DNA of 64,000 bases from Streptococcus uberis (GTDB lineage Bacteria; Bacillota; Bacilli; Lactobacillales; Streptococcaceae): the NCBI RefSeq assembly GCF_000785785.1, contig NZ_JRQN01000011.1:19101-83100 (forward strand), given 5' to 3'. A model generated the notes under the pieces. It was not told the origin of the DNA. It made no database searches and saw nothing but the letters and a program-made list of their open reading frames with translations. The position numbers were made by a program, and so were the translations under genes. This document shows positions 6,956-30,666 of the stretch, piece after piece; the first letter of the stretch is position 1, and every line of letters begins with the position of its first letter.

Positions 6956-7050
6956 AACTATTTGTCGTCCAATCTAGTTGAAATATTGTCCAACTAGGAA
7001 GTACAGCAGTTAAATCAAACTGATTCAGTCAGATTTAGCTGCTCTTTTTG
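6956..7050 (+). ncRNA. Structured rpoB leader (Lacto-rpoB-like)
   Basis: Two hairpins follow the rpoB promoter. The first has arms CTAGTTG / CAACTAG (6974-6997). The second has 11-bp arms GCAGTTAAATC / GATTTAGCTGC (7006-7042, one G-U pair) and is followed by TCTTTTT, so it looks like an attenuating terminator well upstream of the gene. A conserved RNA called Lacto-rpoB is known upstream of rpoB in Lactobacillales; place and shape suggest this is that element, but I matched it by position and not by alignment. Confidence 0.55.
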
Positions 7051-26496: not shown

Positions 26497-26588
26497 AAAA
26501 TTTTAATATGATTTTTGATCCTGTCTTATAAGTCTGTTTAGCCTTGTCATGATGGGCTTAGGCAGCGATTTAATTGTCAGAATATTTC

Positions 26589-26648
26589 ACCTAAAAATGA
26601 CAATTTTCAATTTTAGGTGTTGACAGTCCTAAAAAAATGAATTATAAT
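26589..26648 (+). promoter_or_regulatory. Consensus promoter with abutting inverted repeat, trpX-like operon
   Basis: TTGACA, 17 bases, TATAAT (26620-26648), a perfect sigma-A promoter. Immediately upstream is CACCTAAAA-N13-TTTTAGGTG (26589-26619), ending at the -35. The repeat could be an operator or the ssb terminator without a T-run. Confidence 0.75.
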
Positions 26649-26685
26649 TTAGAAAAATTAAACGAAAGAAAACAGGAGGTGCCCT

Positions 26686-26748
26686 ATGGTAAGCATTAGC
26701 ACAACTCATAACATCAATAAGCGTTATTACTTTAGCTTCTTTAGATAG
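26686..26748 (+). CDS. Attenuator leader peptide with Tyr-Tyr-Phe-Ser-Phe-Phe codons
   Basis: A 20-residue open frame with AGGAGGT six bases before its ATG, about 30 bases into the predicted transcript. The C-terminal part reads KRYYFSFFR. Five aromatic codons in six just before the stop is the classical design of an amino-acid-sensing leader. No Trp codon is present. The peptide stop lies two bases before the first arm of a chain of mutually exclusive hairpins that ends in a terminator. Function is inferred from layout. Confidence 0.8.
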   Translation: MVSISTTHNINKRYYFSFFR

Positions 26749-26749
26749 T

Positions 26750-26942
26750 GTTTGTAGTCATGGGAAACATGGATACAAACACGTGAAACGTTAGTTTGTA
26801 TCTATGAGGCTAGGGCTATTTGAGTTGTATGTCCACATAGATAAATCATATCTAAGTGGGCACCACCATAGAGCAGTGTATTTTTTAGCACTCTTGTATT
26901 TGTGTAAGACCATTTAGATTAATCTAAATGGTCTTATTTTTG
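26750..26942 (+). promoter_or_regulatory. Ribosome-mediated transcription attenuator (chain of alternative stems)
   Basis: Segments can pair in sequence: A 26750-26762, B 26768-26780, C 26794-26809, D 26833-26842, E 26850-26859, F 26910-26919, G 26921-26935. A:B has 11 Watson-Crick pairs plus one G-U in 13; B:C 12 plus one G-U in 13; C:D 9 of 10; D:E 9 of 10; E:F 9 plus one G-U in 10. F:G is a perfect palindrome AAGACCATTTAGATT/complement followed by ATTTTTG, a terminator. A ribosome finishing at the leader stop would mask A, giving B:C, D:E and F:G (termination). A ribosome stalled on the Tyr/Phe codons leaves A free, giving A:B, C:D and E:F (read-through). Confidence 0.8.
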
Positions 26943-26965
26943 TACACAAATGAAAGAGGAGTTAT

Positions 26966-27937
26966 ATGAAATTTAAACAAGTATTTTTTACAGTCGGTTT
27001 ATTAAGCCTATTGATTACCTTATCAGCTTGTCGTAAAGAAGCGACAGAAAACAAGAGTCAAGTAAAAGTCGGGATTATTCAGTATGCTAAGCATCCTGCC
27101 TTAGATGCTTCAAAAAAAGGCTTCCTAGAAGCATTAAAAGATGGTGGTTACAAAGAAGGCAAGAATTTACAAATTACCAGTAAGAATGCCCAAGGTGAGC
27201 AAGCTAACCTCCAAACCATGGTTGACCAATTGACAGGTAAGAATGATGTGAATTTTGCTATTGCAACACCAGCAGCACAGGCCTTGTTGACAAGTGATCC
27301 AGATACGCCAGCCGTATTTACTGCTGTAACGGACCCTGTCGGAGCAGGCTTAGTTGACGCAATGGCTAAACCTGGTAAAAATATGACTGGCTCAATTGAT
27401 GCAGGTAATGTACCTCAACAAATTAACTTATTGCTCAAGGCTGTTCCTACTGCTAAAAAAGTGGGTATCTTTTATAATTCCAGTGAAGTCAATTCACAGA
27501 TGCAAGCCAAAGAGGCTAAAAAAGCATTGAAGAAAAAAGGTATTACGGCAATTGAAAAGACAGTTACGACAAGTAATGATGTTCAACAAGTCATGACCAG
27601 TTTAGTTGGCCAAGTAGATGCTGTTTACCTACCGACAGATAATACAGTAGCTTCAACAGCCATGACAATTGGTCAAATTTTAAAAGAAAATAAAATTCCA
27701 GCAATCGGCAGTGACAAAGCATACCTTGACGCTGTACTCTTTACTTCAGGCGTTGATTATGAAGCAATTGGCCGTCAAGCCGGAGAAAAAGCAGTAGCCA
27801 TTCTGAAAGGAAAAAAAGCTTCAACAATTGCCGTTGCTAAACCTGAAAAACCTGAATTAGCTATCAATAAGGATATGGCTAAATCACTGGGTATCAATCC
27901 TTATGAACTTGAAAAACAATTAGTAGAAAACAAATAG
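26966..27937 (+). CDS. TrpX-like ABC transporter substrate-binding lipoprotein (copy 1)
   Basis: A 323-aa lipoprotein of the ABC_sub_bind (TrpX, DUF534) family, with a lipobox LSAC at Cys22 and a periplasmic-binding-protein fold (VKVGIIQYAKHPALDASKKGF ... FAIATPAAQALLT ... VFTAVTDPVGAGLVD). It captures the substrate outside the membrane for the adjacent permease and ATPase. The family is usually called tryptophan-binding, but the upstream leader senses Tyr/Phe codons, so the true ligand may be tyrosine or phenylalanine (inference). GAGGAG precedes the ATG, directly after the attenuator terminator. Confidence 0.85.
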   Translation: MKFKQVFFTVGLLSLLITLSACRKEATENKSQVKVGIIQYAKHPALDASKKGFLEALKDGGYKEGKNLQITSKNAQGEQANLQTMVDQLTGKNDVNFAIATPAAQALLTSDPDTPAVFTAVTDPVGAGLVDAMAKPGKNMTGSIDAGNVPQQINLLLKAVPTAKKVGIFYNSSEVNSQMQAKEAKKALKKKGITAIEKTVTTSNDVQQVMTSLVGQVDAVYLPTDNTVASTAMTIGQILKENKIPAIGSDKAYLDAVLFTSGVDYEAIGRQAGEKAVAILKGKKASTIAVAKPEKPELAINKDMAKSLGINPYELEKQLVENK

Positions 27938-27948
27938 AGGACACTGAC

Positions 27949-28938
27949 ATGGAAGTTAACTATCAAAGGATTACAAAATTAAACAAATTACTCATCATCG
28001 CTCTAGCAAGTATTTTCTTGGTTGCTTGTCGGAAATCATCAACAGACAATATGAGAATGTCACAAAAAGAAATTAAAATCGGTATTCTTCAGTACATGGA
28101 ACATGTTTCTTTAGACCAAGCTCGAGAAGGTTTTAAGGAGGAGTTGAAAAAGAAGGGCTACACAGAGGGTAAGAATGTAACCTTTGATTATCAGAATGCG
28201 CAAGGGGACCAATCTAATTTACAGACCATATCAGAACAGTTGGTCAAAAAAAATGATTTGGTCTTAGCTATTGCAACACCAGCAGCGCAAGCAATGGCAA
28301 CAGCCTCTACTAACACACCGGTTGTCTTTACAGCTGTAACTGATCCTGTATCTGCTAAATTGGTTTCTTCAATCAAAAAACCCGGAGGCCTGTTGACCGG
28401 AGCAAGTGACCAAGCACCAATTGATAAGCAAGTTGATTTGTTAGGTCAAGCCCTTCCCAAGGCAAAAAAAGTCGGCATACTTTATACAAGTAGTGAACGT
28501 AATTCAGAAGTTCAGGTAATAGAGGCTGAGAAAGAGCTAAAGAAAGCTGGATATCAGGTTGTTAAGAAAGCTATTTCTTCAACAAATGATGTGCAAGATG
28601 CGACGAATAGTCTGATGACACAAGTCGATGCGCTTTTTGTTCCGACAGATAATACGGTTGCTTCAACTATGTCTATGATTGGACAACTATCAGTAGAACA
28701 CAAGGTTCCAGTTATTGGTGGCTCAACAGATATGGTCGATGTGGGTGGTTTACTGACCTATGGGACAAACTATCGTCAGTTGGGTAAGCAAGTCGCAAAG
28801 CAAGCTATTAAAATTATCGAAGGTAAAAAGGTGGCTAATATTCCAGTTGAGTCTCCAAAGACACTTGACTTGCATATCAATAAGGAGCAAGCTAAGAAAT
28901 TAGGCTTGGATCTCGGTCACTTATCAGTTAAAAAGTAA
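27949..28938 (+). CDS. TrpX-like ABC transporter substrate-binding lipoprotein (copy 2)
   Basis: A second 329-aa family member, clearly a paralogue of the preceding gene (shared IGILQYMEHVSLDQAREGF, AIATPAAQAMATAS and FTAVTDPVSAKLV segments), starting 11 bases after it. The lipobox is LVAC. Two binding proteins for a single permease/ATPase set suggests either two ligands or two affinities. The N-terminus before the lipobox is 26 residues. GAGGACACTGAC upstream gives a modest ribosome site. Confidence 0.85.
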   Translation: MEVNYQRITKLNKLLIIALASIFLVACRKSSTDNMRMSQKEIKIGILQYMEHVSLDQAREGFKEELKKKGYTEGKNVTFDYQNAQGDQSNLQTISEQLVKKNDLVLAIATPAAQAMATASTNTPVVFTAVTDPVSAKLVSSIKKPGGLLTGASDQAPIDKQVDLLGQALPKAKKVGILYTSSERNSEVQVIEAEKELKKAGYQVVKKAISSTNDVQDATNSLMTQVDALFVPTDNTVASTMSMIGQLSVEHKVPVIGGSTDMVDVGGLLTYGTNYRQLGKQVAKQAIKIIEGKKVANIPVESPKTLDLHINKEQAKKLGLDLGHLSVKK

Positions 28939-28969: not shown

Positions 28970-29854
28970 ATGGCATTAGTATTATCAAGCCTGTCACAAG
29001 GGCTCTTATGGTCGGTGATGGCAATCGGCGTATACATCACATTTAGAATTTTAGACATTGCGGATTTAACAGCAGAGGGGTCTTTTCCCTTAGGTGCAGC
29101 GGTTTGTGCTACAGGAATTGTTTCTGGACTTAGCCCTCTATTTTCCACCCTCTTGGCGTTGGTTGCCGGCTTCTTAGCCGGTCTTATTTCCGGATTAATT
29201 CATACCAAGCTAAAAATTCCAGCTCTTTTGACAGGGATCATCACATTAACAGGTCTTTACTCAATTAATCTGAAAGTGCTAGGTCGTGCTAATGTAGCTC
29301 TATTAGGACAAAAGACCTTAGTCAGTCAAGTTTACGATATAGGCTTTACTAAAATAGCCTCAGTTATGATTCTTGGTGGGATCTTTGTCTTATTAGTCAT
29401 TGCTGTTTTGACTTTGCTGATGAAAACTCAATTAGGATTGGCTCTTCGATCAACCGGAGATAACATTCCAATGAGTGAATCCAACGGCATCAAAACCGAT
29501 AACATGAAGATTTTAGGTTACATGATTTCAAACGGTTTAATTGCTCTTTGTGGGGCTCTTCTTTGTCAGAACAATGGCTACGCAGATCTCAATTCTGGGG
29601 TAGGTACCATTGTTATAGGGCTAGCCTCAATAATTATTGCAGAAGTAGTGATTCGGAATTTGAGTATAGGCTGGCGCCTAACGTCAATTGTGCTAGGTTC
29701 AATTATCTACCGTCTGATTATCCTGGCCATCTTATCTATTCCTGGTATGGATGCAGACTTGGTTAAACTCTTCTCAGCTATTCTATTAGCAAGTGTTCTT
29801 TATGTTCCAGAAGTTCAGAAGAAATTACGTATTCGTCAACCCAAATTAAGTTAG
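28970..29854 (+). CDS. TrpY-like ABC transporter permease
   Basis: A 294-aa membrane protein of the BPD_transp_2 (LivH-like) family with eight or so helices (GLLWSVMAIGVYITFRILDIADLTAEGSF is the characteristic N-terminal part, here split by a helix end). GNNGYADLNSGVGTI-like sequence near residue 200 is conserved in TrpY proteins. AAGGAGG precedes the ATG. It partners the ATPase that follows nine bases later. Confidence 0.88.
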   Translation: MALVLSSLSQGLLWSVMAIGVYITFRILDIADLTAEGSFPLGAAVCATGIVSGLSPLFSTLLALVAGFLAGLISGLIHTKLKIPALLTGIITLTGLYSINLKVLGRANVALLGQKTLVSQVYDIGFTKIASVMILGGIFVLLVIAVLTLLMKTQLGLALRSTGDNIPMSESNGIKTDNMKILGYMISNGLIALCGALLCQNNGYADLNSGVGTIVIGLASIIIAEVVIRNLSIGWRLTSIVLGSIIYRLIILAILSIPGMDADLVKLFSAILLASVLYVPEVQKKLRIRQPKLS

Positions 29855-29862
29855 GAGTTCAC

Positions 29863-30666
29863 ATGACAGCATTATTAACAATCGATTCGATTCACAAAGT
29901 TTTTGAAGCAGGCACCGTTAATGAAAACCATGTCTTGCGAGGTCTATCTTTGAAAGTTGAGCAAGGAGACTTTATTTCTATTATTGGGGGAAATGGAGCA
30001 GGTAAATCAACGTTAATGAATAGCTTGGCAGGAACACTTAGTCTTGATCAAGGAGATATACTATTAGAAGGTCAATCAATCAAGAACCAACCAGCTTCCC
30101 GTCGCGCAAAAGTTATCAGTAGAGTTTTCCAAGATCCCAAGATGGGTACAGCATCACGCTTAAGCATAGAAGAGAATATGGCTATAGCTTACCGACGAGG
30201 AAAAAAACGTGGCTTAACTTGGGGAGTCAAAGAAAGTGAACGTCAGATTTTCAAAGTAGCTTTAAAAGAATTAGATTTGTCTTTAGAGAATCGAATGAAA
30301 GTAGACACACAATTCCTTTCAGGTGGACAAAGACAAGCCTTGACACTTCTCATGGCATCATTAGAAAAACCAAAACTATTACTTTTAGATGAACATACAG
30401 CTGCCCTTGATCCTAAAACCAGTGATATGGTTATGAACTTGACAGATAAAATTGTCCAGACACATCAATTAACAGCATTAATGATTACACACAATATGGA
30501 AAACGCTATTACCTATGGAAATCGTCTAGTTATGCTCCATCAAGGCAAAATAGTAGTCGATGTGTCGGGAGAAGAAAAACGCAACTTAACAGTTCCTCAA
30601 TTATTGGACTTGTTCCAATCAAAAAGTGGTCAAGACTTGAGTGATGATGCCCTTATCTTAAGTTAA
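29863..30666 (+). CDS. TrpZ-like ABC transporter ATPase
   Basis: A 267-aa ABC ATPase with Walker A GGNGAGKSTLMN, signature LSGGQRQALTL, Walker B LLLLDEHTAAL (His after Glu, as in LivG/TrpZ-type ATPases) and switch TH in MITHNMENAI. It ends the operon, 50 bases before a bidirectional terminator. Confidence 0.9.
   Translation: MTALLTIDSIHKVFEAGTVNENHVLRGLSLKVEQGDFISIIGGNGAGKSTLMNSLAGTLSLDQGDILLEGQSIKNQPASRRAKVISRVFQDPKMGTASRLSIEENMAIAYRRGKKRGLTWGVKESERQIFKVALKELDLSLENRMKVDTQFLSGGQRQALTLLMASLEKPKLLLLDEHTAALDPKTSDMVMNLTDKIVQTHQLTALMITHNMENAITYGNRLVMLHQGKIVVDVSGEEKRNLTVPQLLDLFQSKSGQDLSDDALILS

Follow-up and report, generated by a model that had tools for sequence, protein, structure and literature searches.

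The attenuators of the trp, his and phe operons of Escherichia coli consist of a short leader open reading frame with codons for the end product, mutually exclusive hairpins and an intrinsic terminator, and transcription is terminated when the leader is not translated. These four features match the layout described here upstream of a transport operon of Streptococcus uberis, where termination without translation is a prediction. The E. coli type differs in having four segments, whereas we find seven plus a further one, L, whose sensor codons pair with segment C, and in that a single scaffold serves several amino acids here. In lactic acid bacteria and related organisms, T-boxes are better known. 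Within Firmicutes, his leader peptides are described in Bacillus, Peptostreptococcaceae and Erysipelotrichales, the his genes of Lactobacillales being mostly under T-boxes (PMC2965389, PMC9413887); these leaders share ribosome-mediated attenuation with our locus but concern his genes and other taxa. The trpX gene of Streptococcus suis is reported to be under a Trp T-box (PMC9382623). That system resembles ours in its homologous TrpXYZ operon and its terminator choice; however, a T-box senses tRNA directly, and T-box-linked paralogues carry the Gln of the Trp pocket. Literature searches by the leader and by its Rfam names, covering open-licence PMC papers, turned up no account of it.

The window, that is, the whole analysed stretch of 64,000 nucleotides, contains the following elements in front of the operon. 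Percentages of paired cells and counts of two-sided changes come from the leader alignment described further below.

26620..26648, plus strand: predicted promoter, TTGACA, 17 bp, TATAAT (12 of 12 consensus matches)
26674..26681, plus strand: Shine-Dalgarno sequence of the leader, AGGAGGTG, read from the sequence
26686..26748, plus strand: leader open reading frame, MVSISTTHNINKRYYFSFFR and stop, 20 codons, read from the sequence
26725..26742, plus strand: sensor codons Tyr14 Tyr15 Phe16 Ser17 Phe18 Phe19, read from the sequence; stall sites Tyr14 to Phe16 predicted by masked folding
26730..26747, plus strand: segment L (sensor and stop region), partner of C by folding; L:C 92.4% of cells paired, 52 two-sided changes against 19.2 in shuffles
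26749..26762, plus strand: segment A; A:B 88.5% paired, 35 against 5.9
26768..26781, plus strand: segment B; B:C 91.4% paired, 9 against 3.4
26794..26815, plus strand: segment C, partner of B, D or L by covariation of L:C, B:C and C:D
26833..26843, plus strand: segment D; C:D 85.1% paired, 10 against 3.5
26850..26859, plus strand: segment E; D:E 84.8% paired, 20 against 6.3
26906..26919, plus strand: segment F, 5' arm of the terminator; E:F 90.3% paired, 33 against 6.4
26922..26941, plus strand: segment G, 3' arm of the terminator and T-run, also found by terminator scan; F:G 84.2% paired, 119 against 44.0

As in leader-peptide attenuators generally, a short reading frame with its ribosome site and a run of relevant codons is joined to an intrinsic terminator by mutually exclusive helices. 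The leader has five Tyr/Phe codons and the tail YYFSFFR before its stop; the strong ribosome site, the 20 codons and this ending are as given in the preliminary description of the locus. So are its six exclusive stems from A:B to F:G, including the terminator, all of which we recovered base by base: A:B has 12 Watson-Crick pairs and one G-U pair out of 14, B:C has 12 and one out of 13, C:D pairs at 10 of 11 positions, D:E at nine of 10, E:F has nine Watson-Crick pairs and one G-U pair out of 10, and the F:G stem pairs at all 14 positions and is followed by a T-run (terminator scan, 26904-26937). That list of stems lacked a seventh helix, L:C, in which the leader codons at 26730-26747 pair with C at 26799-26815 and which is present in the minimum free energy fold. 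The folding energy of the leader region is -96.1 kcal/mol, compared with -59.7 +/- 5.0 kcal/mol for 200 dinucleotide shuffles (z -7.2), none of which folded as well. The longest chain of linked 10-nt helices counts six in the real sequence and at most five in the shuffles (five in two of 200).

No T-box (RF00230), a finding which the preliminary description had named as contrary to its reading, was matched anywhere in the window at the gathering score or within 26500-27100 at E<=10, no known Rfam element was found in the leader region at cut-off, and there are no tRNA genes within the 64-kb window. A Lacto-rpoB RNA (RF01709, 72.9 bits) at 6960-7017 is the sole Rfam element that exceeds its cut-off anywhere in the window.

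Leaders of this aromatic type are present at 61 of the 110 trpX-homologue loci listed (28 of 30 and 33 of 80), a list that includes the window itself and some records twice; at two more loci, L055 and L079, the core was found further upstream by model R2. The carriers named among these loci belong to Streptococcus, Enterococcus, Vagococcus, Lactobacillus, Lacticaseibacillus, Lapidilactobacillus, Atopobacter, Alkalibacterium and Ruoffia, which we take to be Lactobacillales, and their leader tails range from YYYGYYG, without Phe, to AFFAGFFFG, without Tyr. Among the Lactobacillales in the list, Streptococcus henryi L033, Trichococcus L040 and Enterococcus MMGLQ5-1 L105 have neither a leader nor an R2 match, and locus L053 is cut off. 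The TrpX homologue of the S. henryi locus is close, at 63% identity, and no leader can be recognised in front of it; a second locus of this species, L046, has one. In place of the aromatic leader, L029 carries a trpB motif and L030 a T-box, both among the first 30 loci.

We aligned 47 representative leaders chosen from the 61 (alignment A2; MAFFT, by sequence only and unfitted to structure). A scripted terminator search was positive in 46 of the 47, and four ends were placed by eye. In all seven helices 84-92% of cells are paired, as opposed to 25-51% when the partner is slid by 1-3 columns, and the number of cells with two-sided changes exceeds that of all 500 shuffles for every helix, in raw counts that ignore kinship. 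When pairs showing a two-sided change are counted instead of cells, L:C (178 of 500), C:D (220 of 500) and D:E (72 of 500) do no better than shuffles, and the same is true of L:C (137 of 500), B:C (307 of 500) and C:D (276 of 500) by the number of pair types. Within L:C, replacement of the codon UUU by UAC (Phe to Tyr) is matched by replacement of AAA by GUA in C, and neighbouring pairs change from UA to AU in 14 sequences and from UA to CG in 14. The alignment of streptococcal and related leaders had been proposed as a check on the attenuator reading; in it the stems covary, leader and terminator are conserved, and we saw no homologous leader of which the terminator alone remains. The RNAalifold consensus on the leader core was B:C and not L:C with A:B. 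It was dropped as a model structure and, since it gave B:C only, the structure of covariance model R1 of the core (L:C and A:B, 98 positions) was set by hand.

The switch was modelled by folding the RNA with ribosome-covered positions masked, the footprint being assumed to reach 12 nt past the A-site codon. With no ribosome the mean pair probabilities are 0.97 for L:C, 0.89 for A:B, 0.90 for D:E and 0.91 for F:G, a terminating fold, and with a ribosome on the stop codon the fold consists of B:C, D:E and F:G, again with the terminator. When the ribosome is stalled at Tyr15 or Phe16 and the RNA extends to F, we obtain A:B at 0.87-0.88, C:D at 0.81 and E:F at 0.95-0.96; a stall at Tyr14 gives this read-through fold in about half, and stalls at Phe18 or Phe19 follow the terminator path. 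This suggests Tyr14, Tyr15 and Phe16 as the useful stall sites, with termination predicted for stalls at Phe18 or Phe19. The full-length RNA, however, adopts B:C, D:E and F:G at equilibrium even with a ribosome at Tyr14 to Phe16, the terminator being favoured in every state, and B:C with D:E is preferred in the RNA prefix ending at E under a stalled ribosome. Since the equilibrium fold returns to these helices under a stall, read-through would have to be kinetic.

From this modelling we infer stalling, folding kinetics, termination and read-through as follows. In the absence of translation, L:C and A:B would form, followed by D:E and the terminator F:G, and transcription would stop. With sufficient charged tRNA, a ribosome at the stop codon would cover L and A, leaving B:C, D:E and F:G to form, with the same outcome. 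With insufficiently charged tRNA-Tyr or tRNA-Phe, a stall at Tyr14 to Phe16 would hide the 5' part of L and leave A free, A:B, C:D and E:F would form, and the operon would be transcribed, which would require kinetic trapping of the folding during RNA synthesis. The preliminary description had proposed the parity of the last two states, together with folding of the leader with A masked or free as a check: in the masked folds a ribosome at the stop codon gives the terminator, and stalls at Tyr15 or Phe16 give the read-through fold in RNA reaching F, but the full-length equilibrium is the terminator. Its six-stem logic also needs amendment. Without L:C, the seven-segment chain would begin with A:B and end in read-through when the leader is untranslated; helix L:C supplies the predicted termination in that state. 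We consider it very likely that the element is a conserved leader operating as a ribosome-dependent transcription attenuator of a predicted Tyr/Phe uptake operon. The earlier reading as Tyr/Phe leader-peptide attenuation draws support from conservation, covariation and the way in which codon identity tracks gene function.

Rfam holds a family, RF02863 ("Enterococcus sRNA 2410"), that we take by name to be the E. faecium sRNA_2410, an RNA of 195 nt for which Northern blotting showed two transcripts (PMC5593968). Every RF02863 match lies over the leader and spans the codons into the terminator stem; the window scores 57 bits, under the gathering cut-off of 61 that six of 42 other trpX-homologue loci reach. 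The entry differs from our reading in being filed as a small RNA gene. If it were a trans-acting small RNA, as its Rfam type ("Gene; sRNA") and the discrete RNA of E. faecium would have it, proximity to transporter genes would be incidental. The structure, however, lies 5' of amino-acid operons with a leader reading frame and a terminator, its sensor codons follow the downstream gene, and the match starts among the leader codons and stops within the terminator, like a terminated leader; we regard a purely trans-acting role as very improbable. The terminated leader RNA of an attenuator may have an additional second role.

The trpB motif (RF04312) is a second related entry, which PMC11109978 presents as a strong riboswitch candidate in an account that leaves room for a classic attenuator. 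The window leader scores 28.2 bits against it, under the gathering cut-off of 59. A search of 299 genomes of the class gave 17 matches in 15 genomes, of which 13 are directly preceded by a leader reading frame containing one or more Trp codons. The leader ends in WQxW[RH][RK] in nine of the 17 (L420-L422, L424, L426-L428, L435, L436), and this makes the trpB motif probably a Trp leader attenuator; the four matches other than the 13 comprise one His leader, two Tyr/Phe leaders of the long-scaffold type and one match without a leader. The WQSWHR tail is also that of locus L357, whose Trp leader (tail IWQSWHR) lies on the long scaffold and precedes a trpXYZ operon, and the chain of exclusive helices is shared as well. 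Unlike the seven-segment leader, the Streptococcus copy L420 shows five segments, with A:B, B:C, C:D and a terminator D:E, again an odd number, and the motif is published as a riboswitch candidate. A separate RF04312 copy in the genome of the window (L400, 60.7 bits) precedes a trpX paralogue; A:B, B:C and a terminator are among its best nine helices and C:D is not. The trpB motif was absent from 13 trpX loci outside Lactobacillales, three of which have a T-box, and a scan of the regions upstream of L029-L110 for reading frames with paired Trp codons yielded no convincing candidate. Locus L429 of genome G449 has the leader FHHHHRFKGL with four His codons and an RF04312 score of 54.5 bits (cut-off 59), and the gene following it is hisZ-like (218.3 bits, cut-off 271.65), which suggests a His member of the same superfamily.

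A riboswitch binding the free amino acid, as proposed for the trpB motif, would account for the strongly conserved structure, and the published standing of that motif speaks for it. It would leave unexplained the exchange of codons with compensating changes in C, and the structure contains a leader reading frame with a ribosome site and codons that match the pathway. Moreover, 16 of the 17 RF04312 matches lie near a leader reading frame, whose codons are for Trp in 13 cases, His in one and Tyr/Phe in two. We give direct binding of the amino acid very little credence compared with a ribosome reading the codons.

Sensor codons were compared with downstream genes at 179 further loci from 103 genomes (80, 19 of 20, and 80), which are not a random sample since copies were taken mainly from multi-copy genomes and two families. 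Genes were labelled by the first match that the first two open reading frames gave; L323, without a reading frame, counts as other. Leader peptides of L225 and L238 were assigned by hand (choice of frame) and L268 was left out. Some labels rest on size and position beside scanned relatives, namely the aromatic ones of L255, L348, L350, L351 and L359 (prephenate dehydratase) and of L379, L381 and L385 (transketolase), and "other" for L393 and L399.

Tails rich in Phe, Tyr or Trp occur at 158 loci, 139 of them before aromatic genes, 19 before other genes and none before branched-chain genes. The 139 consist of 93 TrpX-type cases and 46 others: 12 aroE, 10 aminotransferase, seven prephenate dehydratase, five aroF, four transketolase, three D-2-hydroxyacid dehydrogenase, two aroC, and one each of aroB, a TrpXYZ-type permease and an MFS-chorismate mutase fusion. 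Among the 19 are eight polar amino-acid ABC transporters, four MFS, two DASS, two amino-acid permeases, one PTR2, one unknown and one case with no reading frame. Tails rich in Ile, Leu or Val occur at 21 loci, 20 before branched-chain genes (10 livJ, five ilvE, three ilvA, two ilvB), one before a peptide-binding protein and none before aromatic genes. Crossover between the two classes is thus zero (Fisher p = 8e-26, for loci that are not phylogenetically independent), and 20 of the 179 loci have an other or unassigned downstream gene. The 15 genomes with Ile/Leu/Val leaders belong to one family (f4), including Ruoffia halotolerans, placed there by an identical leader; 13 of these 15 genomes carry an aromatic copy in addition. 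Since downstream genes differ as well in relatives without aromatic codons, the loss of these codons does not speak against the preliminary description.

The partner of the codons changes with them. As many as five pair types occur in L:C among 104 matches aligned to the model. Pairing of L with its own C is seen in 94% of cells for the aromatic class and 99% for the aliphatic one, and pairing with the C of the other class in 50-52%, in a fitted alignment where part of the drop is due to register. C differs along with the sensor codons between the Tyr/Phe and Ile/Leu/Val classes. A third alternative is nascent-peptide arrest of the TnaC kind, by which the peptide YFSYFR would itself stall the ribosome in response to the free amino acid. 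The C-terminal Phe-Arg and the Ser/Gly of aromatic leaders are indeed strongly conserved, but these residues are encoded by nucleotides paired with C, Tyr and Phe swap freely, and the run is Ile, Trp or His in other copies; arrest by the peptide appears most unlikely beside stalling at the codons.

The scaffold is a family with exchanged sensor codons (Tyr/Phe, Trp, Ile/Leu/Val and His), which is the wider and new part of our result. We think it probable, with less assurance than for the single locus, that it is a re-codable switch, whose specificity has moved among the Tyr/Phe, Trp, Ile/Leu/Val and His regulons with compensating changes in C, which replaces T-boxes, and which explains both the Rfam small RNA and the orphan riboswitch candidate. 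The same probable reading has the chain vary in length by two, from seven segments to five in a Trp copy, and because the change is by two the on/off sense is kept. What began as a guess on a single locus becomes a widespread family that, in lactic acid bacteria and related organisms, would control both import and biosynthesis of aromatic as well as branched-chain amino acids. An Rfam small RNA and a riboswitch candidate with over 900 representatives each gain a candidate function that can be tested, and the family is a natural experiment in the change of specificity of an RNA regulator; if true, the switch would be a ready-made programmable amino-acid sensor.

At nine loci (L239, L256, L372-L374, L383, L384, L389, L394) an aromatic leader precedes a pair of genes for an aminotransferase and a D-2-hydroxyacid dehydrogenase, which could make phenyllactate or related acids. 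One leader, VIINRIYIR (L329, genome G782), mixes Ile and Tyr and precedes a peptide-binding protein and an M20 peptidase.

Model R1 matched the core in 257 of 395 Lactobacillales genomes, covering 62 of 80 genera, with up to five copies each; the remaining 138 of the 395 had no core match under strict filters. Among 398 genomes drawn from the class, 35 match the core, five of them outside Lactobacillales. Scans of more than 40 genomes used stricter filters, so that absences are soft. Ribosome-mediated attenuation had been called uncommon in Firmicutes in the preliminary description; given the core in 257 of 395 genomes, it is not rare in Lactobacillales. Rare copies in Bacilli outside the order (L249-L251, L253, L256) precede aroF, a transketolase gene with aroF downstream, or the aminotransferase pair.

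The operon downstream of the leader encodes four proteins.

26966..27937, plus strand: first TrpX-like substrate-binding lipoprotein, NF041285 288.3 bits (cut-off 390); pocket Asp250 and Tyr265 by alignment
27949..28938, plus strand: second TrpX-like substrate-binding lipoprotein, NF041285 353.8 bits (cut-off 390); pocket Ser and Tyr by alignment
28970..29854, plus strand: ABC permease, an open reading frame whose matches (AI-2, B6, sugar and urea ABC permeases) are weak and score far under cut-off
29863..30666, plus strand: ABC ATPase, an open reading frame matching many ABC ATPase families, none at cut-off among the best 25 matches listed

Both lipoproteins stay below the NF041285 equivalog cut-off of 390, and four proteins linked to Trp leaders score 464.5-467.9 bits. 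Among solved relatives, CD0873 is reported to bind Tyr, VC_1101 Phe and SP1069 Trp, with Glu263 of CD0873 touching the Tyr hydroxyl and Gln284 of SP1069 the indole (PMC6816091). We placed the pocket columns by alignment and linked them to that numbering ourselves. The nearest solved chain to the first window protein is tyrosine-bound CD0873 (6hni 233.7 bits; 3lkv 184.8; 3lft 165.0), and it has Asp at the position of the CD0873 Glu and Tyr265 at that of SP1069 Gln284; the second has a Ser and Tyr pocket and scores 236.3, 202.7 and 210.4 bits against the same three chains.

Gln at the SP1069 Gln284 position is found in 23 of 189 proteins and in neither window protein. Of the 166 proteins linked to these leaders, 158 have Tyr there and eight have Phe, and none has Gln. 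The 23 comprise 20 Streptococcus paralogues, which are weaker matches of the TrpX search, and the proteins of L030, L029 and L357; the pocket entry "ARO V,Q" is L029, which carries a Trp leader (RF04312). Fifteen of the 20 paralogues have a T-box match (13 over cut-off), three a trpB motif and two neither. On the basis of its pocket residues the first window protein is predicted to be a Tyr/Phe binder. The preliminary description had argued from the codons that this "tryptophan" transporter handles Tyr or Phe; a pocket without the Trp Gln agrees with the codons, and we infer the transported substrate as a prediction from both. More broadly, the leaders allow substrates to be predicted for transporters annotated only as "tryptophan". 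A trend (p = 0.002) linking leaders with Phe alone to a non-polar pocket, and Tyr-rich leaders to Asp or Ser, was set aside and is not relied on, since Ser is still present in 12 of the 21 cases in which the leader lacks Tyr.

The two TrpX-like proteins at 26966-28938 stand in tandem with unlike pockets (Asp/Tyr and Ser/Tyr), and such tandems recur in relatives, where some are triple.
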